NCBI GenBank assembly: GCA_021234155.1
Contig: JAJEKV010000031.1
Location: 4,108,835 to 4,172,834, forward strand
Source of the DNA: Isoetes taiwanensis
Lineage: Eukaryota; Streptophyta; Lycopodiopsida; Isoetales; Isoetaceae
Reading direction: 5' to 3'
Length of the DNA stretch: 64,000 bases
Position numbers and translations under genes: made by a program. Of the stretch, positions 2,225 to 44,385 are shown piece after piece. How positions within the stretch are numbered: position 1 is the stretch's first letter; each line of letters begins with the position of its first letter. The notes under the pieces were generated by a model. That model made no database searches. It saw nothing but the letters and a program-made list of their open reading frames with translations, and was not told the origin of the DNA.

Positions 2225-3056
2225 TGGCATTAATTGGGGATTTGAACTTCAACACTTGGCAAAATTTGAGGGTGAACAAAACTTTTTTAATGGTTCTTTA
2301 GGGGTACAAAATTTGCAATCTTGAGTTCCTCTTCCTTTTTTTTTTTTTTTTTTTTGGGGGTTGAGGTGTATGGTTTCTAGACATTGGGATGGTTGGAGTA
2401 GTAGTAAAACCATTTCCAGAGGTTGGAGACTTGAATGTATTGCAACAAATAGAGGGGCATTAGATGCTATTTATTATGAAGTACTAATAGTTTACAGGAA
2501 AGCTAACCCTTCTAATCATGAGACTAGACAGAGACAAATTATTGCCATGTGCTTATCATTTAGAAATTGAGCAGTATAGCATGTTGGTAGCAGTTTAAGC
2601 AAGGTGATTGTTGCACATAGTTTTTCTTTAGATCTGCAAAAGCAAGCAAGCACTCAGCTCTCGTTTCTTTGCAAGTACAATATGACTCCCTTATTTCGTA
2701 GCTTAAAGACGTTCTCTATAATCACTTCATTCCTTGCCCCATGTAAAGCCATTGGTATTGCTACCTTCCATTCTTTAATTAAGAAAGGAAGAAAGAAAGA
2801 TATCCATTCTTTCAGTCATGAACTAGTGGAAAGAAAGAAGCAAGCATAATTTCTTCAAATTTACAATCTCAATGGTTCATTGTTTCGAGGTTTTTAGTTG
2901 CATATATCCTCTTTCCACTAATCCAATCATCTAAAAAAGTGGTAATTCTAGTCCAGGTTGATTGGCTTAAAAAAGCATGCAAATCCAAAAATACATAACA
3001 CATCAAAATTTAATCAAAACATACATAATATAAAAATGGGAAAGAGGTTCATCCCT

Positions 3057-3312
3057 CTTCTTCTTCTTCTTCTTCTTCTTCTTCTTCTTCTTCTTCTTCT
3101 TCTTCTTCTTCTTCTTCTTCTTCTTCTTCTTCTTCTTCTTCTTCTTCTTCTTCTTCTTCTTCTTCTTCTTCTTCTTCTTCTTCTTCTTCTTCTTCTTCTT
3201 CTTCTTCTTCTTCTTCTTCTTCTTCTTCTTCTTCTTCTTCTTCTTCTTCTTCTTCTTCTTCTTCTTCTTCTTCTTCTTCTTCTTCTTCTTCTTCTTCTTC
3301 TTCTTCTTCTTC
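3057..3312. repeat. (TTC)n microsatellite, about 85 units
   Basis: An uninterrupted TTC/GAA array of about 256 bp ends exactly where the TIR of the 3313-7460 element begins. Long GAA/TTC tracts can form triplexes. The poly-Leu and poly-Glu frames across it are products of the repeat, not genes. Confidence 0.98.
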
Positions 3313-4013
3313 TAAGTCGTATTTAATTAAAGTGGGACTCATTCCATTCCCATTTTTTTTCGGAACCCGGTTAATTTACATAAAAAGGAGCACCCCGACC
3401 CGAAAACTATCCTTAATTCGAATTTTTGAATAAAACTCCGCATCCAAGCTTTGCTTCAGTTTTCCCTGGTTAGCGAGTCGAGAACAAGAACAATGCAATT
3501 GAAACAAAGAAAATTCATTAAAGTTTGAAACCAAAGATCTAGTTGAAAAAGGTTCTTAGTTGGATATTTTGGTTCTATTTTCTTGGGTGGGTAGACAAGA
3601 GATCACAAATTCCAACAAAAATTAAGCAAATTGTTTACTTAATCACCAAAAAATACTAATTTTGAGACCATAGTGGTCGAATGGGCACAATGATTACACG
3701 CTCTTCACACATGAACGACCTAGTGCAAAGGGCGCGTGGAGCTCTCTCAAGTCACGGAGCAACTTCTGCATCGATAGAAATTTGTATGAGGAGTTCCTTC
3801 ATGGGCCACGTGCTTGTATGTCCAACTGATGTCACCACCCTCTTCTCGGCACCTTTCTTCAATGAACTAGTCTTTTCATTGCTCCCAAGCATGTACTATC
3901 TGGTTGAGATAAGGACTGCAAAAGACAAAATCAAGTTAGTCAAGTGATGCTACAGGCAAAAAAAAATAAAATAAAAGACAATTCTTAGGGCCATTTTTGG
4001 AAAATACAAAATG

Positions 4014-7370: not shown

Positions 7371-7460
7371 ATCTAACAACGATTCAATGTAAAAAAATTC
7401 CCATTTTCAGTCTGAGTCCCAAAATTCGAGATTTGTCCCACTTTAATTAAATACGACTTA

Positions 7461-7715
7461 TTCTTCTTCTTCTTCTTCTTCTTCTTCTTCTTCTTCTTCT
7501 TCTTCTTCTTCTTCTTCTTCTTCTTCTTCTTCTTCTTCTTCTTCTTCTTCTTCTTCTTCTTCTTCTTCTTCTTCTTCTTCTTCTTCTTCTTCTTCTTCTT
7601 CTTCTTCTTCTTCTTCTTCTTCTTCTTCTTCTTCTTCTTCTTCTTCTTCTTCTTCTTCTTCTTCTTCTTCTTCTTCTTCTTCTTCTTCTTCTTCTTCTTC
7701 TTCTTCTTCTTCTTC
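7461..7715. repeat. (TTC)n microsatellite, 85 units
   Basis: A pure 255 bp TTC array starts directly after the right TIR of the 4.15 kb element. It has the same orientation and almost exactly the same length as the left array at 3057-3312. Confidence 0.98.
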
Positions 7716-27802: not shown

Positions 27803-28987
27803 AAATATAACTTTATTGGACAGTCTCAGCAGTGTGTGGAATTGTGTATCTGACTAAAAACTCTGGCGAGTTCAGATCACCACGTTGCACTTATGAATTT
27901 ACTTTTCCGGATGCATGGCATAGCCAGTAAGTAGGTCCCCAGTTGATGGGCTGCCACCTTGTGCAACAAATATATGAATGCCATCCATTGAAATTTTCCA
28001 AAATCTATGTCTTTAACTGACAAGTTGATTCTTGTCGTGACAAACTTTGTAATTTCAATTCGAGCTGTTCCATGATCCTTCAAGTGCACCTTCTGGTTTG
28101 TCATGGTCATTCTCTTCCAACTTAGCACTAGCATAGATGTCTGACGTAAGAACATATCCCGGAGTGCAACAGGAATTTAGATTAACAACTCCATTAAAGC
28201 ATTGCCTTCCCAGCTCCACATGCCCGTGCATTTTGCAGGCACTAAGAAGAGACATCAAGCCAGAAACATTGGGCTTTGTGGGTTTAAGAAAGCTTGTTGC
28301 TTCACTGAAAAGCCCTGCATGGCCCAGAAGATCAACCATGCAATTACAACGAAATATGGTTGGTGTTATGCCAAAGCATCGTGTCATGTATCTAAAATAA
28401 TAATGACCTTCATTAACTAGTCCTGCATGCCAGGATACACTAAGAATACCAACAAATGTTACATCATCTGGCTTGCATTGCATGTCCTCGAGACATTGTA
28501 TGGCCAATATAACGTGACCGAGTTGTGAATATCGTGAAACAATTGAATTCCATGATATCACATTAGGGTCTGGCAATTCTTCAAAAACCTTTTGTGCTTC
28601 TTCCAGGCTGCCACATTTAACATACATATCAACAAGTGCATTAGCAACAACAATGTCCAACTGGAATAATTCAAGTGCTTCTCTCAACCTTCCACTATTT
28701 GTAAATGCAGCAATCATGTTCGTCCATAAAACCCATCTCTACAAATGAGCTTGTAAACTCACCTCCCTTCAAATAAAGCTTTTGGAGCTCCGCATTCCTT
28801 TAAAATTCTAGAGTAGTATACTTGCCTTGCTGAACTTCCTGATGGTTCTCTAGATACAACATTGGAAACCATATCTGATAATGTATCCCGTAATGTATTC
28901 GATAGCTTCTCCCATAGCTCGGTGCAGAGGAAAAGAGAGCCATATCCATTAGCAACAAATGGAAAAACCAACCTCCAAAGAACCAAC
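27803..28987 (-). pseudogene. PPR gene fragment, tandem duplication unit A
   Basis: The longest frame (28717-28055) encodes PLS-type repeats: VVANALVDMYVKCGSLEEAQ, then NVISWNSIVSRYSQLGH, DDVTFVGILSVSWHAGLVNE, CMVDLLGHAGLF, and an E-domain-like stretch LMSLLSACKMHGHVELGRQC with GYVLTSDIYA. The 28759-28989 piece resembles the gene's N-terminal leader. There is no full set of repeats and no DYW end. The unit is followed at once by a second copy that begins at 28988 and is split by the 14.2 kb element. The shift between copies is 1185 bp. Confidence 0.85.
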
Positions 28988-29275: not shown

Positions 29276-29825
29276 GAAAATGGCCTCCTATCAGCCATTC
29301 CACGTCATATTTCCGCTCCCTTTTTCCCATGCCACCTAGGATACCAAACTCTCATAATTACAGATTTGCTTGGAATATTCTTCCGGAATAAGGGGGATTG
29401 CACATTCATGGCGCCATATGTATTTAATTCTGTTGATTGTCAGACGGACTGATGCAACACGTGGCGCTTCTAAAATGCCACTTGCATTATAGCATACCGG
29501 CAACTCATTACGGTGTCTCTTGGTAAGCGTGCGCGTCACCGCCTTCTACATTTCAAAATTTGAATGTGTAGGTTGAAGCTTTGTATCAGATCAGACTTTC
29601 ATTTCGAGGGCCGGTACTGCGCCTTAACCGATCTTCACTTCATCCTAATACAGGCTTCCCGCCCCCACAATTCGAAATTTGAATTTGCTTAATGTATAAA
29701 AGCATGGATTGTAGGAGAATGGACTTTTCGATTTCCATATGCACGTTGCAAATTTCAAAAACGAAGTTAGTATCGGACGTTCGGCTCACACGGCTTAATT
29801 GTGTTGGGGCATAAAAATACCACAC
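29276..29825 (+). promoter_or_regulatory. Left subterminal block with TATA box, copy 1
   Basis: About 500 bp shared with 31242-31812: AAAATGGCCTCCTATCAGCC start, ATGGCGCCATATGTATTTAA, CACGTGGCGCTTCTAAAA, and TATAAAAGCATGGATTGTAG at about 29695. The TATA context and conservation suggest a promoter. It may drive the short plus-strand frame at 30346. Confidence 0.55.
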
Positions 29826-31070: not shown

Positions 31071-31148
31071 GGATCACACTAAGCGAATAGTACATATGCA
31101 ACAAAAATGGAACACACTAAATTCGCATCGTGTGATCCACTTTCTTAT
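31071..31148. repeat. Dispersed hairpin HP1
   Basis: Arms GGATCACACTAAGCGAAT (31071-31088) and ATTCGCATCGTGTGATCC (31131-31148) around a 42-base loop. It is a diverged member of the TCACACGACGCGAA family found only within the giant element. Confidence 0.8.
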
Positions 31149-31241
31149 TTGTTGTCAAATTAAAATTAAACACAAGTCCAGTCTCCCATTTGCATATAAA
31201 ATATCTATCATTCCAAGTTATATTATGTTTTATGAACTAAA

Positions 31242-31812
31242 ATGGCCTCCTATCAGCCATTCCACGTCATATTTCCGCCCCTTTTTTCCCGTCAGATTTG
31301 CTTGGAATATTCTCCCGGAATAAGGGGAATCGCATATCTATGGCGCCATATGTATTTAATTCTGTTGGTTGTCAGACAGATTGACGCAACACGTGGCGCT
31401 TCTAAAAAGCCACTTGCATTATAGCATACCGGCAACTCATGACGGTGTCTTGGTTTGTCAGATACCAATCATGCGCATCACCGATTCTTGTCTTGCACTA
31501 TTTTCATTTAGAGTCCATTCCCGCCTTCTACATTTTAAAATTTGAATGTGTAGGTTGAAGCTTTGTATTAGACTTTACGTTTTGACTGCGATTACATGCC
31601 TTAAAAGTTCGTGAATCGGATCTTTACTTCATCCCAATACAGGCTTCCCGCCCCCCTACAATTCGAATTTTGAATTTGCTTTTGTATAAAAGCATGGATT
31701 GTAGGAGAATGGACTTTTCGATTTCCATATGCACATTGCAAATTTAAAAAACGAGGTTAGTACCTTTGAGCCTCAAACGGCTTGTCTTTGGGGCATACAA
31801 ATTGTACACATT
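31242..31812 (+). promoter_or_regulatory. TATA-bearing block, copy 2
   Basis: Direct repeat of 29276-29825 with the same TATAAAAGCATGGATTGTAG at about 31686. It lacks the outer TIR bases. It sits just upstream of the ATG at 31841 that begins the plus-strand gene, so it is probably its promoter. Confidence 0.6.
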
Positions 31813-31840
31813 CATTTCGGCCGTCGGCGATCCACGCAGC

Positions 31841-34420
31841 CATGGAAGCTCCAAATGATGTGTGGATAAGGATCCAACCGACTCGTGAATATGCTCCAGT
31901 CTTCAATCGCAAAAAGGAGGTCTAAAAATAAGAACTTAGACCTCGACATGTTGCGCCTTGCGTGCTCAAAAGTGTCGACATCCGGGCGGATGGCGCTTTA
32001 TATCCATTGGATCCGTTGAGTGGCAAGAAATCGCCATTTCGACGCGTTTCAAGTTTAGTCCGATTTTGTGGTGATGGTAACTCGGCCTCTTGGGATATTG
32101 TGAGAGATTGAGAGGGATGAAGGCATTCTAATCGAATACAGTTCCTTGAGATGAGCCGCTTCGATTGTCACAAGAGAATTGTAACTTAAACCAGCAGCTC
32201 TTTTTCTCTCGCTTCATTACACCTTGTGATGAAGGAAAGGAATGACGGCTTGGGGAGGGAAACTTCTTTGAGATACGAAGTGGACAAGTCCAAATTGGTG
32301 ATAGGGCAGTTTGCAAGAAAAGATCCAAGAGCTCGAAAGAGCAAACTTTGGGCTTCAATGTAGGTTAAAGAATTTGAAGAAAACACCCTTGGCTTGCGAG
32401 AAAGGAAGAAGCATTATCGAATCGATAGAGGAACCAAGTTTGGATCAGGTGCATTCAGACGCAGGTCACGCCCACAAGGTCCGCTTACAACACTAGCAAA
32501 GGCCGCTTAAGATCCGGGGAAACTAGAAGCAATCTTGGTTACGTAGTGAAGAACCTAGCGACGAAACAGGGAGATAGTGGACATGATTTGTCGGGCCTAC
32601 AACTCTCCTCTCAAGAAGATGGTATTGGAAATGGTACTAGGGGAGATCTACAAGAAGTTAGAAGCGGCATGATGTGTGGTGATCTGTTTGTGATGATGTA
32701 GGCATCGGTATGCTTGGTTACCGTTCTCTATTCAAGCCATTCCACGGCGTTGAAAAGAATGGGCACAAAAAAGTATTCGGCTCCACGTCCACAAATTGTC
32801 GAGAATACAAGGGTTACTAGGACAAAGATGGTGTATGCCATATTAGGAGAGATGCACCACGTTGAATGTGTTTGGTCTGCCATAGCCATAAAAAGATAAG
32901 AATGGCAAGGATTGTTGTGATATAGTTGGAATGAATGAACGCAAATAATCTTTGGGTTGACTCGTTACTCTCTTACAATTCCTTGTCAAATATTATGACT
33001 TAACAATTGCGTAAACTAATGGTGAGATTGAAGTTTGCATAAAATTGGATGAAATGGAACCCGACCAAGTTTGAGAAGTATGCGAGGATATCCGTTGTCA
33101 TCATGAATAGAGCAATTGAGAATGCAATTGCACATGCTAAATCAAAGAGCAACAAGAATAATAAAAAAGATGTAGAGTTGACGGACGAGGAGAAGAAGCG
33201 TGCGGAAAAATGGTTCTCATGTCAATCAAGATGACACCGGTGGTTAGGTCTCTTTAAAGTTCAGAAAGAAACCCACGAGGTATTGAAATGGGTGTTCAAT
33301 CAAACTGACATCCCGAGTCTAATATCTAGATTCGAGGGAGGGGAAAAATTGCAAGTAGATCACTATGGATCTTACAAAGTAATTTTTCACTTGGCGTCTG
33401 ATTTAAAACCGAGAAAGCAATGTACAACATAAGTGGAGGAGGACAAGGAACATGCAAAAGTTGTCTCAGATTTGCAATCATGCAAGGAAGTCAAGTCTTG
33501 GGAAGATCTGTTTCAACCTTGTCCCTTAACCAAGCAAATGCTCCTAATAGAGGAGAAGAAGATCCCAAGTTCCATGGCATTTTCCCCATTCCATTAGAGA
33601 GGGTTCATATCTGCACTTTGCACGGCTTTGTGAGAATCATCGACAAGATGATATTTTTGAGTTGCGCATTCGTGTGGAACATTTCGCACAAGAAGAGAAG
33701 AGAAGAGAGGAAGGAATTCGTGAGAGTTGAACATGTTCTATCGTAAGCAGGTTTGCATGGTGGCAATGTAAGATTAGAGCTCGATGAGAAACGGGGCGGG
33801 AAAGAACAAGTGTGCCTCGTAAGGTGTCAATTGGAGGGGTGAAAGCTTCGACGCTTCATAAAGAATCATAGAGAGGCTCAACGGAAACCGGATGGGAGAA
33901 AAGGTCTATGAATTTGGAAAATTGCTGGTTGATGCGAGCAGGACCGCCTGACGGCGCTCGCTTCGGCATTGAGGAAAAAAAAAGCATGGGATGCATTGTC
34001 CGAATTGTTCCCATACATTCGAGAAATGGACCTCACAAGAGAAGATGCGAAAATGTTCGTGCAAGCGAATAACAAATTTATTAAAGCTTTCATAGACGCA
34101 TGGGGAGAGAGTGAAGTCACGCACTACTTGCACATCTTTTGGGCTCATGCACCTTGGTTTTTAGGAAGTATGGAAGCCTAGCGAAGTGTGGAGTGCACAA
34201 GGCATGGAGAAGTCGCATAAACAAGCTAAAATAGCCTTTCATCGTAACACTCAAAGAGGGGGTGGAAATGTGGGAACCAACCCTCTAAGACAGATGACAG
34301 AGTGGTTTTATAGAAGGGCGATGGCTAACATTTACAAGAAGGTCGCTTTTAGGAGCAACCCGTAAGTCGTAAACACCATTGGCATAATGTCAAGAGAAAA
34401 CGGAAAGTTGCTTGGCAAAA
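31841..34420 (+). pseudogene. Decayed plus-strand gene, candidate transposase
   Basis: Pieces in order: MEAPNDVWIRIQPTREYAPV at 31841; a coiled-coil-like KIQELERANFGLQCRLKNLK near 32320; basic/acidic text with NKNNKKDVELTDEEKKRAEK near 33160; IPLERVHICTLHGFVRIIDK near 33590; HYLHIFWAHAPWFL near 34120; and in the next frame GMEKSHKQAKIAFHRNTQRG near 34210, then EWFYRRAMANIYKK. The 'HxxxxHAPxxL..KYGS...GMEKSHKQAK' layout resembles a family of large uncharacterised proteins common in eukaryotic repeats, but I cannot name it. Frame changes occur every few hundred bases. It is the only long plus-strand gene and thus the best candidate for the mobility protein, by inference only. Confidence 0.5.
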
Positions 34421-34501
34421 TTCTAGGCCCCACTAGCATCGCGACAAAGGAGATCTAAGAGAAAAAGAATCGGTAAAAGTATACTTGTAATGTGTAGCAT
34501 G

Positions 34502-34641
34502 TTCACACGACGCAAAGTACTTGCCTCCAACCTTGTTTGCACAACTGTAGCTTCGCGTCGTGTGATCTTATTTGTATCATATGGCGCGAACAGTGGAGTT
34601 CTCTATTGCTTGCATTTATGTGGCTTCGCGTCGTGTGAAGC
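34502..34641. repeat. Dispersed hairpins HP2 and HP3
   Basis: HP2: TTCACACGACGCAAAG (34502) pairs with CTTCGCGTCGTGTGAT (to 34566). HP3: a degenerate left arm TCATATGGCGCGAA (34577) and an intact right arm CTTCGCGTCGTGTGA (to 34638). They lie between the ends of the convergent plus-strand and minus-strand genes, where a bidirectional 3'-end signal might sit. The minus-strand frame of the next gene runs into HP3. Confidence 0.8.
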
Positions 34642-35191
34642 TTTACAAGATAATAATAAAAAAGGGTTACTTTTGATTAAAGTTGTGAAAGATGTTATAT
34701 TGAAAAACAAAATACAACGACTCATTGTTGCTCCGGTCTTGAGCTCTTCTTCATTATCTTCATCATCATCATCAGCTCGGCCCTCGCCTTCGCCTTCATC
34801 TCTTCCCCTCAAGCGAGCAATCACCCTATCCAAACGTTCCTCCAATCTGTCCACCATCTCTTTGTACATGTCCCGCTCCTGTCCCAATAGCACAACGTGT
34901 TCTTCTGCCTGAATTAGCATCCTCGTTGCCGTCATAACCACCTCAGTGCAGTTGTTGGGGCATGTCATCCTGTTCAGCCTTCTATTCAACCGCCTGATTT
35001 GCCTCTCTTGGCTACGAAGCATGAGAAGGTTGAATTCATTCTCTTCTTCTTTCTGCTGAATTGTAACGGCGTTTTTCCTTTAGAAGATCATCTTGCTCCT
35101 TCAACCTCTTCATTAGAACACCCAACACTATGTCGGAAGGGAGTTCTATCCTCTTCGTTTTTCCTTATCACGTTGAGGATGTGGAGGCCAT
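34603..35191 (-). CDS. Coiled-coil protein, paralogue 1 (frameshifted)
   Basis: ATG at 35191 gives MASTSST, then after a one-base shift ELPSDIVLGVLMKRLKEQDD, a charged region and a clean 139-residue frame from 35022 with RSQERQIRRLNRRLNRM and DRLEERLDRVIARLRGRDEG. An acidic tail DDDDEDNEEELKTG precedes a final stretch encoded by hairpin HP3. The start 'MASxSS...LPxDIxLxVxMKRxKE' is shared with the genes at 36696 and 37590. A structural or DNA-packaging accessory role is conceivable, but nothing shows it. Confidence 0.5.
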
Positions 35192-35424
35192 AGATGACAA
35201 ATGGGAGGGACGTTAAGATTATAGAAGTGAGGAGCAAAGACTCTAACCGCGTAAGGAGCACAATGCAAGGACCTCAATTTATACATATTAGCGCTTGAAC
35301 ATATTAAACACAAATGGCTTTCAGCCGCGTGTCGTCGAGTGGATTCTCGGTTATTGTCCGCTAGAACACATTAATGGTAATGCTCCGCCGGAACACATTA
35401 ATAACTATTCTAACTACATCAGAT

Positions 35425-35490
35425 ATCACACCACGCTGAAATCGCACCACGAGCTTTAAAACCCTATGAAGGGTTTAAGCCCGTGTGATC
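35425..35490. repeat. Dispersed hairpin HP4 (degenerate)
   Basis: Left arm ATCACACCACGCTGAAAT at 35425 and right end CCCGTGTGATC at 35480. An inner stem CTTTAAAACCC / GGGTTTAAG lies between. It is in the gap between two minus-strand genes. Confidence 0.55.
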
Positions 35491-35639
35491 CGTCTTGTCA
35501 TTCTCTCTACCACGGATATTGAAAATTAAAATAGGAAACGTAATATTCGCACATTTGTCAAAAAAACTTTTCCCATTGAGAAATAAAACCATTACAAACA
35601 TTAAAAAAAAACGGGCCCCTCTAGGAGGAGCCCGATGCC

Positions 35640-36070
35640 TATGATCGCCGAGGCAAGCTCTTCCCGGAGGGCGGTGATAATTTTTTTCTGCTCCTCCAAC
35701 ATGATTGCACGCCCGCAACTTCACGTTCTCATATTCCGCAACCTTATCTTCCCGCTCATCGAGTTGAGCTCGGGCAGCCTCTCCCGCTTCCGATTGCGGC
35801 CCTAAGCCTCTCTTGGAGGTTATATCTTGTGGCGCTGCACTTCAGCGGTCTAAGGCAGCCCGCTGATTGTCAAGCCACTAAAAATCACCTCCCCGTAGAA
35901 GGCGGCCTTTTCCTCTGCCGAACCCGGCTTGGCGGCGTCTTCATCATTCTTTTTTTTAGAAGGCTTAATCCGCTCCTCCGGTTCCTCAAAGACATTAATG
36001 TTTTGAATTTCCTTGACCAAAACTTGAGACAAGATCTCTGGGCAGGGATGGAACCGGAGCTGGAGGCCAT
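35640..36070 (-). CDS. Small charged protein of the giant element (frameshifted)
   Basis: ATG at 36070 gives MASSSGSIPAQ. A second frame then reads SQVLVKEIQNINVFEEPEER and KKKNDEDAAKPGSAEEKAAF, and further down MLEEQKKIITALREELASAI. A TATA box (CTATATAAAGCGTCGG on this strand, about 36170-36155) lies about 90 bases upstream. The MASSS start and helical content resemble the neighbouring paralogues, but the LPxDI motif is not evident. No known domain. Confidence 0.4.
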
Positions 36071-36540
36071 TGAAAGTGATGGGAGAACAGGAGAGATGGT
36101 CGAGGGCTGATGTGGTAGAAACAGAGATGGCGGATAGGAGAAGACAAAGGCCTCCGACGCTTTATATAGAAACTAGAGATACGTTGGAATCTACGGTTCG
36201 AAAATGGAATAAAGTTGTGTAATAATCCTACGAAATAAAATTATAGCATGCAATTAGGCAACGGTAGCCTATGTTCGCATCATGGGATCCGGCCATATCC
36301 TAGCCGCATTGTATGCGGGCCGCATAAAAAAACAATGTTATTGTGGCAAATAAGATGCCACGCCCTTGGCATGACGTTGTCATCCACAAGCCACGTATGT
36401 GAATAGACGTTGTCATCCACATGCAAATTAGCATTTACCCGCAAGTTATCACATAATCTAGCTAGATATTTGTGTTACATATACTTTTCCATTAATAAAT
36501 TAGGAATTTATACATACAACGAGGTGTATGCGTTGTGGAG

Positions 36541-36608
36541 ATCATCTGACGCCGAAATCCATTGATTGCTACCTAATTGCAAGAATGGCATTTCGGCCGT
36601 CAGTGATC
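36541..36608. repeat. Dispersed hairpin HP5 (variant arms)
   Basis: Left arm ATCATCTGACGCCGAAAT, right arm ATTTCGGCCGTCAGTGAT. The loop beginning CCATTGATTGCTACCTAATT is the same as in HP7 at 37406, so the two are copies. Both arms differ from HP7 in corresponding places, keeping most pairing. Confidence 0.8.
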
Positions 36609-36695
36609 TTTTAATAAAACAAAACAAGAGAACAGATAGAAGCAAGAAACAAAGCAAATTTTTCTTTGAAACAAAAATATATATATATACAATGG

Positions 36696-37059
36696 CTACG
36701 GATCTTCATGATCCTCAGAAGTCAAGCCGTGAAAGTGCGTTCTCATCCTCCGCAAGACTCGAAGCTTCTTCTCCATATCTTCTAGCTCCTGCGAAATATT
36801 GTGTGCGCTTAAAATCGCCTCGACCCTACGGCTATTGGCCTCTGCATACACAGTTAATGTTGCCGCGAGCTCAAGGTCTCGCATCATCAAAGGCCCCTCG
36901 TGAATTCTAACTCATTCACCGCCTCCATCTTCTCGGCGACAAGACGGGCTGTTTTCGTCGTGAACCTCCTTGAATCTCTTCATCACCACAAAGAAGGGTG
37001 ATGTCCGCGGGCAGCTTCTGGGGCGCCATTAAACTGTCGGAGGAGGATGATGATGCCAT
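36696..37059 (-). CDS. Coiled-coil protein, paralogue 2 (frameshifted)
   Basis: ATG at 37059 gives MASSSSSDSLMAPQKLPADI. After a shift it reads VVMKRFKEVHDENSPS and later, to the stop at 36696, ETAxTxxVYAEANS-like text with AHNISQELEDMEKKLRVLRR. On this strand a TATA-like GTTATAAATAG lies near 37150. It is closely related to the gene at 37590-37974 (shared LPxDI, MKRFKE, LEDMEKKLR). Several single-base frame changes interrupt it. Confidence 0.5.
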
Positions 37060-37181
37060 CGGAGGAGAAGGCTAAGGAAAGGCGGCGAAGAAGATGATGA
37101 GCAGAAGGCGGAAGAGGATCGGAGGTCGAAGGCAAGATAGAAGGTCTTCTATTTATAACAGGGATTTCGTAGTAGCTTGAG

Positions 37182-37243
37182 TCACACGACGCGAAGGATG
37201 CCGTGGGTCAGGAAAATGGACCGTTACTTCTCGCGTCGTGTGA
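37182..37243. repeat. Dispersed hairpin HP6
   Basis: Left TCACACGACGCGAAGG, right TTCTCGCGTCGTGTGA, upstream of paralogue 2. With HP8 it forms a subclass having CTTCTCGCG in the right arm and GAGTCACACGA at the left. Confidence 0.85.
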
Positions 37244-37405
37244 GGAAAAAGGACCGTTACTTCTTCTAACGTCTTTTCTTCCAGAGAAAGCTCGTGTGAT
37301 AATTTTTATTGATAATTTCGGTGATACAATCTATACATAAGTAATTTTACTGATACATAACTAAAGATAGAACTTCTCATTGAAGCAAAATAGAACGGCA
37401 TGGAG

Positions 37406-37470
37406 ATCACACGACGCGAAATCCATTGATTGCTACCTAATTGCAAGCAAGGCATTTCGCGTCGTGTGAT
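37406..37470. repeat. Dispersed hairpin HP7 (perfect arms)
   Basis: ATCACACGACGCGAAAT (37406-37422) and ATTTCGCGTCGTGTGAT (37454-37470) are exact 17 bp complements around a 31-base loop. It lies on the 3' side of paralogue 3. Confidence 0.95.
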
Positions 37471-37589
37471 ATTTTAATAAAACATAACATACATTGGAAC
37501 AAGAGGATAGATAGAAGCAAAAAATAGAGAAAACTTTTCTTTGAAGCAAAAAATAGATAGATACAACGGCTAGGGATCTTCATGATCCT

Positions 37590-37974
37590 CTAGCTGATTT
37601 TCATGTCCTGCAGCTGAAGCCGTAAGGCTGCGTTCTCATCCTCCGCAGCTCGGAGCTTCTTCTCCATATCTTCTAAGGCATGCGAAATCATGTGAGCAGT
37701 TTCAACCGCCTTCGCCCTCATGCTCTCGTCCGCCTCTTGGTATATGGCGAATGTTTCCACGAGCTCAACGCCTCGCTCGTCTGCGCCAGCCTCCCCTCGT
37801 GAAGGCTAATCATCGACCCCTCATTGTTCTCGGCGGCGAGAGGCGGTTGTTTTCATCATGGATCTCCTTGAATCTCTTCATCACCACTGCAAGGGTGATG
37901 TCCACGGGCAGCTCTGGACGCTGGGGAGTGCTATCTTAGCGTGGTCGCTTGCTAGAGGAAGATGATGATGCCAT
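37590..37974 (-). CDS. Coiled-coil protein, paralogue 3 (frameshifted)
   Basis: ATG at 37974 gives MASSSSSSSKRPR, then PELPVDITLAVVMKRFKEIH and, in shifted frames, YQEADESMRAKAVETAHMIS and ALEDMEKKLRAAEDENAALR, ending LQLQDMKIS at the TAG (37592-37590). The C-terminal half has clear leucine heptads. It is a close relative of paralogue 2; the two genes and their hairpins look like one duplicated module of about 0.9 kb. Confidence 0.5.
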
Positions 37975-38000
37975 CGGAGCAGAAGGTGGAAGAACATGAG

Positions 38001-38148
38001 TCACACGAGTTGCTTCTCGCGTCGTGTGAGGAATAAATAAATTAATTGTTCTTTTCCAATAATATTTCATTTCTTCGAGATAGATATCACACGACGCGAA
38101 AACCTAGATATGATGTAAAATCGACCGATGTATTTCGCGTGATGTGAA
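38001..38148. repeat. Dispersed hairpins HP8 and HP9
   Basis: HP8 is compact: TCACACGA (38001) and TTCTCGCGTCGTGTGA (to 38029). HP9: ATCACACGACGCGAAA (38086) and ATTTCGCGTGATGTGAAT (to 38149). Together they fill the gap between paralogue 3 and the next minus-strand gene. Confidence 0.8.
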
Positions 38149-38239
38149 TAAATACAAATAAAGTAATTTTTATTAGGAATTTCGAAGGACAATCAGTACA
38201 TAAATAATTTTACCGATACAAGTTGGAAAACATATAACT

Positions 38240-39788
38240 TCCAATTTCTCAAGCTTCGTCAATTTCATGCTCTTTCAATCCCCCGCACAGACCGATCCAA
38301 CAAGGCAATGACTTCCATGTTATCGACCCTGACTTCCAACCTTGGGTGAATCAAGCCCCAGCCTAAAAAAATTTAACATATTGCTCGCCTCAGACCGGCT
38401 TGGTCGTCAAAATATTGTAGCACAACATCCCGCCAATTGCTATCACACCCTTTCGGTGTTTGATGCCAATTGGGAATGGTTCCCGAACATGCATAATGCA
38501 CGGATGTAATAGACAAACTCGCACCTTTTGACTGAAAGTTCTGCTTTGAAGACGATTACCTCCCCATTAACGAATCTTGAGATATATCGTAACAATGTAG
38601 AGTCCTTCAATCTTTCCTGTCCCCCGTGCATGTCGGGCAAGAAAAATCATCTACTTCCCACAAATAAGAACCCTCAAGCTTATCTTCTTCACATTTATCC
38701 TCATCTACTGTGCTTACGCCCGCGATTGATCAAGGGCCTCGCCAAACCTCAGATCCTGTTGGCAGCTTTGCACGGAGACGCTGGAATTCTTCTTCCGTTG
38801 GTAGATTCGCCTCATCTTGAGCAAATCGAGACTCCAGCCTCTCATAGGCTTCTTTAAGCTTTATAGCATTGCCGGTATAATTAGACACTTCAAACATCTC
38901 TTTGTCCAAATTCTCTTCAAAATCTAGGCCTAAGTTTACCCATTCGGCCAAGGTACTGATAAGCTCGTCTTCCCTAGCACACATTCGTAACAAAGACGGG
39001 TTCCTCAGTATATCACTTAGCAATAGGTATTCTTTGCCTTCCACTAAAATTGGCGTTATGTCAGACAACTTCTTTTCATCCTCATCCCCATCCTCATCAC
39101 CTTCAGAATCATCTCCCTCCTTTGGTTCACCCAAGGCCAGTGCGTCGAAGCTAAAACTCCTACATTCTTGCTCTTCTTCTTGTAGATCTATCTCCATTTC
39201 TACGCCATAGTCGAAGATCATCACACATAACTGACCCCCTTGGCTTAAAGATTTCATTGTTTCCAAAGTGTATCTTCGGTTTGGCCGAAAGCGTAATGCA
39301 ATAACTAGCAAATGCAAACGGCAAAAAGAGAAATAAGATACCTTCTTAAGCACAAGGACGCAGCCGGGAGGAGCCCGTTGTCAAGATTCTTGAAAAACAT
39401 CTTCCCCGTTTGCAAATGGGAAGCCGCCTCCTCTAGAGCTGGTTTTGGAATCCACGAGCCGTGACATCCGCAAAGGACGTCTTGGCGAGACCAAGCGGTC
39501 CCGTGAAAGCTAAGGCAACCTCGCGATAGCATCCAAGCTCGCCATTGTTTGCCATGATGTCCAACTCCTTGCAATAGAACGGATAAATCGCAATCGGCGC
39601 AACTTCCTCGTTGTCATGAGGGGGATGCATACCATTCCGTGAACTTCACATAACAATCCATGGCGAAGCAAACGACGAAAAAACAAGATGTTTAGGAGCC
39701 GGTAAGGCGCCGCACTTTTGAACTCAAGTAGCCGCTTGTCGATTATGAAAGGGGACACAAATAGTTGTGGGGAGATTTGTCCGTACAT
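38240..39788 (-). CDS. Unknown larger protein of the giant element (frameshifted)
   Basis: ATG at 39788 gives MYGQISPQLFVSPFIIDKRL, then in other frames ELDIMANNGELGCYREVALA and a 207-residue frame from 39353 with EEEQECRSFSFDALALGEPK, an acidic run GDDSEGDEDGDEDEKK, and helical text ELISTLAEWVNLGLDFEENL. Below 38730 a further frame contains CPTCTGDRKD. The C-terminal boundary near 38240 is a guess. No family is recognised. Upstream are the TTAGGG array and hairpin HP10. Confidence 0.4.
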
Positions 39789-39790
39789 TC

Positions 39791-39815
39791 TAGGGTTAGG
39801 GTTAGGGTTAGGGTT
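39791..39815. repeat. (TTAGGG)4-like telomeric repeat in a promoter
   Basis: TAGGGTTAGGGTTAGGGTTA + GGGTT lies immediately upstream of the minus-strand ATG at 39788 and touches HP10. On the gene's strand it reads AACCCTAACCCTA. AAACCCTAA 'telo-box' motifs occur in some plant promoters. Confidence 0.9.
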
Positions 39816-39884
39816 GGATCACACGACGCGAAGACTACTATGTGCAACAAAAAAGCACAATGCTTGCTGCGCGTCGTGTGATCC
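39816..39884. repeat. Dispersed hairpin HP10
   Basis: Left GGATCACACGACGCG (39816), right CGCGTCGTGTGATCC (39870-39884), exact complements. It lies between the histone-like gene's 3' end and the next gene's start. Confidence 0.95.
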
Positions 39885-40017
39885 TCACGTATAACATTAA
39901 AAAAAAAAAAATACAAAGTCTGGCTAGGCTTCTAAGAAAGAAATGGACTAAGAGATTCAACTTATAAAGCCATTACATTAAGAAATATTATACATATGAA
40001 AAAAACACAAAGGCACT

Positions 40018-40898
40018 TCACGGCCTTTTTTCTGGGGGGTCTTTCTTCTTGTTGTATTCAGCCATAAAATTTTGACCATAGTACTCGGGATCCCTTATGC
40101 GTAAGACGAGGCGCATGTCCTTGGGCATGACAACCGCCGCTTGGCATGTATTGTTTGCAAGTCGCGAGTCCTCGAACAGACCGACACCAACCGCCTCCGG
40201 GCCATTTGAAGAGCATTTAAAGGCGCTTGCTTGAATTCTCAGAATCGGTATGATGTATCGCACCACACTCTTGCGAGAATCTCTTTCACGAGCACCGCAA
40301 ATGGGAGACGCGGAATGACCATCTCGGTGCTCTTCGATACTTCTTAATCTCGCGCGCTCTTTAATGCCAATGCTTCGCTCTTCCGCTCCTACCACTACCC
40401 TCACCCACCCCAAATTTTTGAGCACATTTGCTGTTCTACCGACTCTTCCGCCATCTCCTCACCCCAAAGATTTGCGGTCGTTCCTCGTCCGAACTCTTCC
40501 GGCCGTCTCCTCACATTTCTGGTCGCCTTCCCCTTTCGGGCGTTGGGCCTCCTCCTTTGATTTGAAGGTTCTGGCGCATCCAGAGGAGGAGCAGGAGGAG
40601 CAGTAAGAGCAAGAACAGGCGGCTGCCCAATAATTAATCCGGCGTCATATTCTGCTCGCCGGTCTCTCACATTTCCATCCTCCGTCTCCGAACCGGAGTG
40701 CACCTCCCTACTTACTCCGGAGCTGCTTCTCCCGCCGTCTGTCATGCGGATTTCTTTTCCGGGTCTTCTGTTAGGCATGGTCGGAGGAGGAGAATCTCTA
40801 TCAGAGACTTCAGATTCAGATGAAGGAGGCGGACTAATGTAATCACCTGGCCTTACACCACCTGGATGGGTCCTTGCAGTTTGCTTAGTTCTTGCCAT
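40018..40898 (-). CDS. Histone H3-like protein with extended tail (frameshifted)
   Basis: ATG at 40898 (context GCCATGG) gives MARTKQTARTHPGGVRPGDY. Residues 1-8 after Met equal the histone H3 tail, and GG and P at H3 positions 12, 13 and 16 are kept, while K9, S10 and K14 are changed. About 130 disordered residues rich in S, P, R and E follow. The H3 fold then appears in three frames: EIKKYRRA (alpha-N, ~40357), IPRLPFAVLVKEILA (alpha-1, ~40316), ALQMA, then GLFEDSRLA (alpha-2, ~40185) and VMPKDMRLVLRIR (alpha-3, ~40130), ending DPEYYGQNFMAEYNKKKDPP. Canonical H3 has LPFQRLVREIA, GLFEDTNL and IMPKDIQLARRIR there. TATAAAGCGCC lies about 25 bases upstream of the ATG. Two or three one-base shifts break the fold, so it is a decayed gene or has consensus errors. 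Confidence 0.85.
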
Positions 40899-41049
40899 GG
40901 CTTCTCAGCGGATGGCGCTTTATACTACTTAACACCGACAAAAAAATAGACAACCGGCAAGAGATAAATAGTAAAAATGTTAAAGTAAAATATGATGGTA
41001 ACGTTTTTAAATAATTGTACGGAACCCTAAAAATATCTGGACAAAATAC

Positions 41050-41952
41050 GGAACCCTAAAAAAACATCGGACAAAAACACAAATAAAAAACCGAGATTCA
41101 AAGCGCTAGGCGATAGACAATTTCTTGTTGATCGCGAACTCACTAAACTTTACATTTCCCTCTTGCCTGTAACCAACCCTAATGCCATCAATAAAATAAT
41201 GGAAGTCGCCGAAGAATCTCCTCTGTCTCCATTAGCACTCTTAGCTCGATAATGGCCATTCGCTTCCATGGTGGTCAGTATAAATGACTTCCTCCCTCTC
41301 CATACTCGAATATCCACCGTGACGGAGTGTCTGCATTATGGTCCTCAAACGGCTCCCAAAAAGTTGTCGCGACCTCTCTTTTTACGCTTTCCTTCGTTCT
41401 AGTTGACAATTAACGATAAATATTGTTTTGGAAGAAAGTATCCGAACTTAGTGGAGGACTTAACTACGCGGACCTCTCATTAGTTGACCGGATGATTCGT
41501 GGAATCGAACATCCTGTGTCGGAACCAAAAATAAGCCATCCACAAAATCGGCAGGGGAGAAAAGCACGTATATGTCTTGAGCTTTTCGAACTTCCTCGCG
41601 CCATCCGAATATGTTAGCAAATACCTCAAACGGTGTGAAGATTTTGAAACTCATCCTCACGCCTCCGCTTTGACATTCCCGCTTGCACCTCGTCGGCCAT
41701 GCATTTCTTCATTGCAATTACATTGTTCTCATTAGTCCGTGGCTTACAAAGTTCACTTAAAGGGGGCAATTCAACCGCCTCAAGCTCGGTTTCGACCTTT
41801 ACGTTATAATCATGTCCAGAAAACCGGATGCCTATACCCCAAGGTCCAGCATCCATACCTTGGAAAAGGACAATTCCGATGTCTATGTGATACATGACAA
41901 GTACACTACTAATACTTTCTAGGAATGACATCCACGACGCGTCGATAAACAT
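41050..41952 (-). CDS. Unknown protein pieces of the giant element
   Basis: A frame from 41952 encodes YHIDIGIVLFQGMDAGPWGI and VKVETELEAVELPPLSELCK, followed in a second frame by FEVFANIFGWREEVRKAQDI and YVLFSPADFVDGLFLVP. A third stretch (41390-41100) has TTFWEPFEDHNADTPSRWIF and FFGDFHYFIDGIRVGYRQEG. The middle part could be the end of a BAH-like fold begun in the 42095-42410 frame, on the far side of hairpin HP11. No firm family. Confidence 0.35.
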
Positions 41953-42014
41953 AAACCCGCATAATAAAGTTGTTTATAAACACGTGTCAACGAAAAGAAA
42001 TGAAAAGATAAGGA

Positions 42015-42082
42015 GATCACACGACGCCGAAACTATCTCTACGCTTAAAGTAGTCGGCGGCTAGCTTCGGCGTCGTGTGATC
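42015..42082. repeat. Dispersed hairpin HP11 (compensated arms)
   Basis: GATCACACGACGCCGAA (42015-42031) and TTCGGCGTCGTGTGATC (42066-42082) are exact complements. Relative to HP7 each arm carries a matching extra base (GACGCCG against GACGCG), a compensatory change. Confidence 0.95.
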
Positions 42083-42094
42083 CGATTAAGGTGG

Positions 42095-42410
42095 TTACCA
42101 TTTTATGGGCAATTTTGGGAATCTGTTTTTGGTGGAGATTAGCTCTTTGGCCATATCGGAAGGGGTATATGCATGTCGTATTGTTATACTTTCCACTTTC
42201 CTACCGCTAGAATTCAACTTGAACTCTTTTATCCTACCTATCCAATGTGTCCGCATCGTCCGATCGCCTTTGTCGCTTAACTCTATGCTCGCCCCTCGTT
42301 GATGGCGAAGATACTCACCCACTCTAACCTATTGAGACAAAACCTCCCACTTCTTGACCTTGGGAGTTACGTAAATGGGGCAAGAACACGAAATTACAGG
42401 AGACATGGAT
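42095..42410 (-). CDS. BAH-domain-like fragment of the giant element
   Basis: From an ATG near 42408 (MSPVISCSCPIYVTP) through one internal stop, the frame continues VRVGEYLRHQRGASIELSDK, then THWIGRIKEFKLNSSGRKVE and YTPSDMAKELIS to the stop at 42095. The order 'VxVGxYL ... WIGRIKEf ... V.IR..YTPSDM' resembles the first half of a BAH domain, a chromatin-reader fold found with methyltransferases and ORC1. Similarity is by eye only. If right, it pairs a chromatin reader with the H3-like protein in one element. Confidence 0.4.
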
Positions 42411-42599
42411 TGCGGATGAGGAGTGAAGGCGGAGAGGATGCACGAGAGGCTGCCAGGGGATAGGTTCAATACGCACGCGTTTTATACACGGAATAATGCA
42501 TGAATTGTATGATACGGCACATATTTGCCGATAAAAACGTAAAAAATACGGCAAAAAAAATTCGGCGTCGCAAGATTTTCGCCGCGAAATCTTCTAATT

Positions 42600-43499: not shown

Positions 43500-44385
43500 T
43501 ATCCATGATCCTTCAAGTGCACCTTCTAGTTTGTCATGGTCATTCTCTTCCAACTTAGCACTAGCATAGATGTCTGACATAAGAACATATCCCGGAGTGC
43601 AACAGGAATCTAGATTAACAACTCCATTAAAGCATTGCCTTCCCAGCTCCACATGCACGTGCATTTTGCAGGCACTAAGAAGAGACATCAAGCCAGAAAC
43701 ATTGGGCTTTGTGGGTTTAAGAAAGCTTCTTGCTTCACTGAAAAGCCCTGCATGGCCCAGAAGATCAACCATGCAATTACAACGAAATATGGTTGGTATT
43801 ATGCCAAATCATCATGTCATGTATCTAAAACTTACCAATGGGTATGGAGTCATAGAAGACAGAGAAAGCTTCCAACATGTCTGCTTGAAGGGTTCTGTCT
43901 GAATCGAGGAGTTTGCCACAATTGATAAGACCTTTGAAAGATGGGGACATGGTGTTTCGGGTAAGTCTAAACGTTGCATAGGGCTGCCGCTTGGTCTAAC
44001 CAATATCACTTGAGCGAGCTCAACATTCTCATCTGCTACAGCCTGAGCACATAACAACAACATCTGAACTAAATAAATCTGTGGATCTACATCGTTTCTC
44101 TGCCTTGGCAAGGGCGGCTGCTGCAACGGAAATGCCCCGCTTGAAAATTGCACAGAAAATGGCGAGGAAGTAGAAATATATAAAGATTGAGTCGGAGATT
44201 CTATCAAAGCTGGTAAAGATGTCTGGGAGTAAGAAACTGACCTACCCATCAAGCCTGGATATGGCGCTTCCCGGGATACACTAAGAATACCAAGGATACT
44301 TCTTCCATAGCTCAATGCAGAGGAAAAGAGAGCCATACCCAAGAGCAACAAATGGAAAAAACAACCTCCAAAGAACCAAGAGCCG
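43500..44385 (-). pseudogene. PPR unit B, right part
   Basis: 43500-43830 matches 28070-28395 almost base for base and encodes CMVDLLGHAGLFSEA, LMSLLSACKMHVHVELGRQC and GYVLMSDIYASAKLEE. From 43850 the PPR text is replaced by a GRAS-like segment, then GGATACACTAAGAATACCA (44270) and the leader region (44310-44380) of unit A resume. Confidence 0.85.
43850..44280 (-). pseudogene. GRAS transcription factor fragment inside the PPR copy
   Basis: The minus-strand frame contains LVQMLLLCAQAVADENVELA and QVILVRPSGSPMQRL, matching the first leucine-heptad region of GRAS proteins (…LL.CA.AVA..N...AQ..L…). Upstream text is serine/proline-rich as in GRAS N-termini. The VHIID, PFYRE and SAW parts are absent. 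It is embedded within PPR sequence, so two unrelated genes are fused at DNA level. Confidence 0.6.

Follow-up and report, generated by a model that had tools for sequence, protein, structure and literature searches.

An H3-type gene fossil with an exact ARTKQTAR tip in a hairpin-punctuated gene island of Isoetes taiwanensis

The window that we analysed is a 64,000-nucleotide stretch of the Isoetes taiwanensis genome, and it contains the remains of an H3-type gene on the minus strand of an 11-kb, hairpin-punctuated island of unassigned ORFs (31074..42080, as delimited by the distribution of the hairpins). The tail of this gene is encoded by ORF1 (40898-40401, minus strand, 165 codons), which opens with the H3 tail tip MARTKQTAR and continues into a long segment rich in Arg, Pro, Ser and Glu. 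The start context of ORF1 is AAGCCATGG, and in the ORF listing for the minus strand its translation begins MARTKQTARTHPGGVRP, or in longer form MARTKQTARTHPGGVRPG. Positions 1-8 match H3 exactly, GG occupies positions 12-13 and P position 16, so that the preliminary description was right to report an H3-like start with GG and P at the H3 spacing in this 165-aa ORF. It was equally right that K9, S10 and K14 have been lost: ORF1 carries T, H, P and V where H3 has K9, S10, T11 and K14. A gapped alignment of residues 1-47 with the H3 tail scores 59 and is weak outside the tip and GG, pairing SPPPT with SAPAT and PNR-RPG with PHRFRPG, and a frame-aware alignment of the tail segment alone gives scores of 57-61. 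The remaining 118 residues of ORF1 are without counterpart in H3, and PNRRPG is separated from REIKKY by ~134 codons of DNA here as against 4 residues in H3. Given its own composition, ORF1 would be open by chance with P=0.0013 or 0.002 in two computations. A protein search returned no homologue of ORF1 at E<=1 among 397 candidates, from which ordinary H3s were also absent, so that the search was insensitive to the shared tip; ORF1 matched neither the Pfam Histone family nor anything in IMG/VR, where plain plant H3 likewise matched nothing and the negative is therefore weak either way. An intron in the tail was considered and rejected, as GTAAGT is present in the insert but the single join that was tried by eye led to a stop codon.

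The DNA from 40354 to ~40085 (minus strand) resembles the H3 core, from REIRKY through the end and corresponding to H3 residues 50-135 in the frame-aware alignment. This core is split across three frames, as REIKKY / KSTEMVIPRLPFAVLVKEI / GLFEDSRL + VVMPKDMRL. All three core signatures named in the preliminary description are present in the translations: LPFAVLVKEI shares the frame of the tail but sits past the ORF1 stop, a second frame holds GLFEDSRLA and VMPKDMRL, and the third holds REIKKY. ORF2 (40021..40458, minus strand, 146 codons from stop to stop) holds the pieces of helices 2-3 (LRIQASA, GLFEDSRL and VVMPKDMRLVLRIR) together with ~24 residues past the H3 end. Similarity to the H3 fold (helices alphaN, 1, 2 and 3) is hence present, in pieces only.

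Against Arabidopsis H3.1 the core scores 184, with 54/86 aligned residues identical in an alignment that was free to choose frames; the Arabidopsis H3.1 and CENH3 reference sequences used here were entered by hand rather than retrieved. The best of 40 shuffled controls reached 36. When 310 further segment/strand combinations from the window were aligned, the highest score was 54 and the mean 31, none of them standing out as a second H3-like site. With a score of 184 against controls of at most 54, the likeness of the core to H3 is not due to chance. The number of frame changes needed within the core depends on the penalty applied, amounting to 9 at a penalty of 8, 5 at 11 or 14, and 3 at 17. 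ORF2 alone retrieved histone H3.2 from the PDB (phmmer, E 9.5e-6), and its match to Pfam Histone (E=0.017) reached 15.8 bits, below the gathering cut-off of 26.4 bits. No single reading frame combines tail and fold, the tail ORF stopping at 40401, before the core. Because the core pieces lie in three frames, the present copy cannot encode an H3 tail together with an H3 fold, and the encoded H3-like protein of the preliminary description is not confirmed. The locus is a real and unusual fossil of an H3-type gene, and not a working histone as it stands.

We simulated the neutral decay of an ordinary plant H3 using the same frame-choosing aligner, and 234 of 2560 runs matched the observed identity and frame changes, with a mean of 0.19 substitutions per site plus indels. 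Neutral decay reproduced the score of the core, its conservative changes (P=0.15) and its lack of stops (P=0.44). As these features match simulated decay, the core sequence retains no trace of a past as a selected, diverged viral H3. A signal of selected divergence (P=0.006) obtained in a biased simulation vanished once the same aligner was applied to the simulated decayed genes, and was discarded.

Several further genes or gene-like units share the island with the H3 locus. An acidic ORF of 175 aa (38730-39257, minus strand), which adjoins the H3 gene and is open, could be placed in no family: a protein search returned no homologue at E<=1 among 100 candidates, and a single-sequence structure model of 38733-39257 was uninformative (pLDDT 37.8). 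Two tandem units of coiled-coil type, A (36.54-37.24 kb) and B (37.40-38.03 kb; together 36541..38029, minus strand), were each duplicated together with their own hairpins and are 75% identical over 530 bp. Over the 44 codons compared, selection was not evident in A and B (dN 1.11, dS 0.90; 0.78/1.78 and 0.99/0.94 in the other frames). The 3' hairpin of one unit has a matched extra pair. A minus-strand ORF at 42098..42328, the presumed 5' part of which is cut off by a stop codon, ends ~15 nt before the hairpin at 42017-42080; neither Pfam nor the PDB gave a match at E<=10, and a BAH-like identity that had been suggested by eye was accordingly dropped. On the plus strand, two overlapping ORF pieces at 33933-34362 contain the conserved-looking HYLHIFWAHAPWFL followed by GMEKSHKQAK..RNTQRGGG and end before a hairpin; Pfam returned nothing above cut-off for these pieces, and the first had no match among viral contigs.

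The Pfam scan covered 86 non-H3 island ORFs, many of them overlapping frames, out of 147 ORFs of at least 45 aa, and none of the 86 gave a match above the curated cut-off, the best below it being Importin_rep_6 (E=0.018). These ORFs include no Pfam family for the NCLDV core genes (major capsid protein, DNA polymerase B, packaging ATPase and VLTF3), which an 11-kb fragment may naturally lack. Nor was a transposase family found among the island ORFs scanned, and the label "mobile element" given to the locus in the preliminary description is unproven. The longest 25 of 103 inverted pairs all fall within an AT microsatellite, Rfam recognised 0 families in 30.5-43.0 kb, and a phage DNA collection gave no match. 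IMG/VR likewise gave no match for five island ORFs, the hairpin pattern or plain plant H3, and these negatives are weak, as even plant H3 retrieved no viral H3.

The hairpins that punctuate the island (31.07-42.08 kb) are 65 bp long and have the arm TCACACGACGCG. Eight of them differ from the arm motif at no more than 3 positions, counted over both arms together (31074-31135, 34503-34565, 34577-34638, 37182-37243, 37407-37469, 38087-38147, 39819..39881 and 42017-42080), and they are joined by one weak (35426-35500) and one diverged copy (36541-36600). The hairpin of the H3 locus, at 39819..39881, has the exact arms TCACACGACGCG/CGCGTCGTGTGA and lies 137 nt past the ORF2 stop. Adjoining it, at 39791-39815, are ~4 TAGGGT repeats of the TTAGGG telomere type. 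A two-arm scan that allowed 7 mismatches found no hairpin in the rest of the 64 kb, and the same scan on five shuffled windows gave 0, 2, 0, 4 and 2 matches. Single arms with at most 2 mismatches number 17 in the island and 7 outside, all 7 of the latter with 2 mismatches, against a chance expectation of 5.25 per window. The conserved 12-base arms are spaced 37-40 nt apart. Where one arm of hairpin 36541 or 42017 has an additional base, the opposite arm has its partner, though elsewhere the 36541 stem is imperfect. We also considered the hairpins as miniature transposons and rejected this, as no target-site duplication was seen by eye at four of them and the loops are mostly dissimilar; exceptions are hairpins 31074 and 39819, which have a stretch in common, and 36541 and 37407, which are duplicates.

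Six of the ten hairpins lie just 3' of an ORF that can be named, at distances of 137 nt for the H3 locus (ORF2), ~124 nt for gene B, ~100 nt for gene A and ~15 nt for ORF 42328-42098; at 31074, 35426 and 38087 the gene ends are indistinct. The other two of the six, adjacent to each other at 34.5 kb, lie between the plus-strand pieces and a minus-strand ORF, the reading of which enters the second hairpin. Hairpin 37182 is upstream of gene A, so "terminator" is not a valid description of all of them. Upstream of ORF1 lies a TATA-type sequence, TATAAAGCGCCATCCGC (40908..40924, minus strand), and the identical 17-mer recurs at 32002-31986 (minus strand), where it also precedes ATG codons; related TATA-type sequences are TATAAAGCGTC at 36166 and TATAAAACGCG at 42486, both on the minus strand. 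The real island contains 42 same-strand 17-mer pairs, those due to the A/B duplication included, compared with 1 in total over 20 shuffled islands. Under the gene grammar proposed here, transcripts would start near TATAAAGCGCC and end at hairpins.

The surroundings of the island are those of a land plant. An amino acid permease at 13.04-14.53 kb is ~60% identical to transporters of Diphasiastrum, Selaginella, Adiantum and angiosperms (among the best 120 of 1905 matches), and the window further contains a PPR E-motif piece (E=0.0006) and a zf-RVT piece (E=0.0007), both below cut-off, as well as LINE-type pieces and, by eye, reverse-transcriptase-like ORFs. The island is flanked by the same stretch twice (28069-28397 and 43502-43830, 97.6% identity over 329 bp), which overlaps PPR-type ORFs. 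A 0.4-kb repeat of 85-92% identity occurs just left of the island (29361-29772) and inside it (31293-31762), an indication that the left boundary either is duplicated or has to be placed further left. Perfect or near-perfect trinucleotide arrays of TCT and CTT, with ~86 units each, are located at 3056-3313 and 7457-7715.

The H3-derived gene seems to be a member of this foreign-looking island and not a plant pseudogene standing by itself, because a hairpin lies past its end, its TATA-type sequence is common to another island site, and its 165-codon tail is open and without a homologue in our searches. The same three features favour the view of the preliminary description that the H3 gene is part of an element, though not that the element produces an H3 at present. 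We give a probability of about one half to the explanation that we prefer, namely that the island is an integrated, decayed fragment of a large DNA virus-like genome and that the H3 locus is one of its genes. As no viral hallmark gene was found, we infer the viral nature of the island, as we do the capture of the H3 gene, its ancestral function and the order of events. Both the A/B units and the H3 core are without sign of selection, which speaks against a viral origin, and an unclassified transposon is a possible alternative identity of the island.

Alternatively, the locus could be an ordinary plant H3 pseudogene, derived from a host gene or retrocopy in a repeat-rich region, which decayed neutrally and received an insertion between tail and core, the hairpins and neighbours being unrelated host repeats. 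We consider this unlikely, while giving it appreciable weight, since the divergence of the core agrees with neutral decay of plant H3, the region is rich in fragments and duplications, and the PDB matches are to ordinary H3. However, a tail ORF that stays open through the insert (P ~0.002) is unlike a host pseudogene with a random insert and is not predicted there, and the promoter 17-mer and hairpin are common to other island sites. The nine-residue tip, moreover, survived exactly in only 0.57% of simulations at the decay rate of the core, a figure that is post hoc because the tip was the reason for choosing this site. That the fold pieces stem from a nuclear H3 pseudogene with no link to the N-terminal ORF, which the preliminary description had named among the findings that would overturn it, is made less likely by the island context, yet keeps some likelihood. 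In plants, CENH3s start with MARTK and carry tails that are long and variable, and a host centromeric H3 (CENH3) gene or pseudogene would share these traits with the locus; the CENH3 tip is ARTKH, however, not the ARTKQTAR found here, and the core scores 95 against Arabidopsis CENH3 but 184 against H3.1 (hand-entered references), on which score we rejected this identity and hold it to be very improbable.

The tail of ORF1 looks better preserved than the core, and this leaves room for a different reading, in which the nucleosomal fold had already been lost and the tip was kept so as to decoy readers or writers of H3K4, the product being ORF1, or ORF1 and ORF2 joined via one frame change. That ORF1 is open with an exact tip and that helix 1 occupies another frame than helices 2-3 would both fit such a mimic, as would an ORF2 that is open across the scrambled core (P=0.00135 against the island background, but 0.025 given its own composition) and frame excursions that return to the ORF2 frame (two at a penalty of 8, one at 11 or 14). 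Some frame was nevertheless wholly open in 9.7% of simulations of a neutrally decayed 87-codon core, and the single-sequence model of ORF2 was uninformative (pLDDT 34.9), so we judge the mimic improbable. Hardly more credible is the combined proposal that an otherwise unrecorded lineage of large, hairpin-punctuated DNA viruses, infecting a land plant of an early-branching group, encoded a tail mimic derived from H3, with the exact ARTKQTAR tip on a long foreign tail, devoid of the nucleosomal fold and aimed at H3K4 readers or writers.

Under our preferred explanation of an integrated virus-like fragment, the parent element would have taken up an H3 gene of eukaryotic origin and retained its ARTKQTAR tip, perhaps along with the end of the tail (PNRRPG weakly resembles H3 PHRFRPG), and some 120-130 codons would have been added between tail and fold. 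A TATA promoter of the element would have driven the gene, and one of the element's hairpins would have followed its 3' end, an arrangement shared with several ORFs nearby. If known single viral H3s are a guide, the ancestral protein, while intact, would have paired with host H4 and entered host or viral chromatin, where it would have displayed a K4-type tail without the contexts of K9, S10 and K14; integration and decay would then have left the fold across three frames. The suggestion that K4 recognition was kept and K9 silencing lost is drawn from the residues themselves, and a decoy or packaging role for the element's H3 is likewise a conjecture from sequence. Should the island be viral, it would record the presence in a land plant of a lineage of large DNA viruses whose gene set is unrecognised and which has its own grammar of promoters and 3' hairpins, together with a captured H3 in which the K4 tip was kept and the rest changed. 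With the hairpin arm TCACACGACGCG as a simple probe, lycophyte and fern genomes could be searched for more copies, and these would make selection on the H3 tip measurable. Among the open-access records listed for our search terms, none named an H3 gene carried by an endogenous large DNA virus in a vascular plant.

Single viral H3s are described for the Dishui Lake phycodnavirus DSLPV1, the Manila clam xenomavirus, Sylvanvirus, and MAGs of mimivirus and phycodnavirus type; of the six covered there, three have tails extended by 35, 53 and 68 residues. They are described as protein-coding, with 73-87% fold identity to the H3 of a possible host, and the authors expect them to form nucleosomes with host histones (PMC9145170). 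The locus resembles them in having one H3 gene with other histones not in reach; unlike in these H3s, as far as that account describes them, its extra residues lie between tip and fold, its fold is broken, and it resides in a land-plant genome (PMC9145170). In the same source, fold identity to Acanthamoeba H3 is 44% for the H3 of medusavirus and 43% for that of clandestinovirus, and the medusavirus H3 is given as lacking K4, whereas here the K4 context is exact and the core is identical to plant H3 at 54/86 residues in the frame-choosing alignment (PMC9145170). NCLDV fragments are known in land plants such as Physcomitrella patens, where they were reportedly recognised by NCLDV core genes; our island is similar in its site in a land-plant chromosome and, as we suppose, its virus-like origin, but differs in that no core gene was found (PMC5294986). 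Many genes of Mimiviridae are described as having hairpins at the 3' ends of their mRNAs, the sequence of which is not conserved in that description (PMC4402537), and their stem and loop sizes are covered in a further report (PMC8557863). The island likewise places hairpins beyond the 3' ends of many of its genes, but in contrast to the Mimivirus hairpins as described there, its arms are conserved in sequence and lie 37-40 nt apart, and at least one hairpin stands upstream of a gene (PMC4402537).
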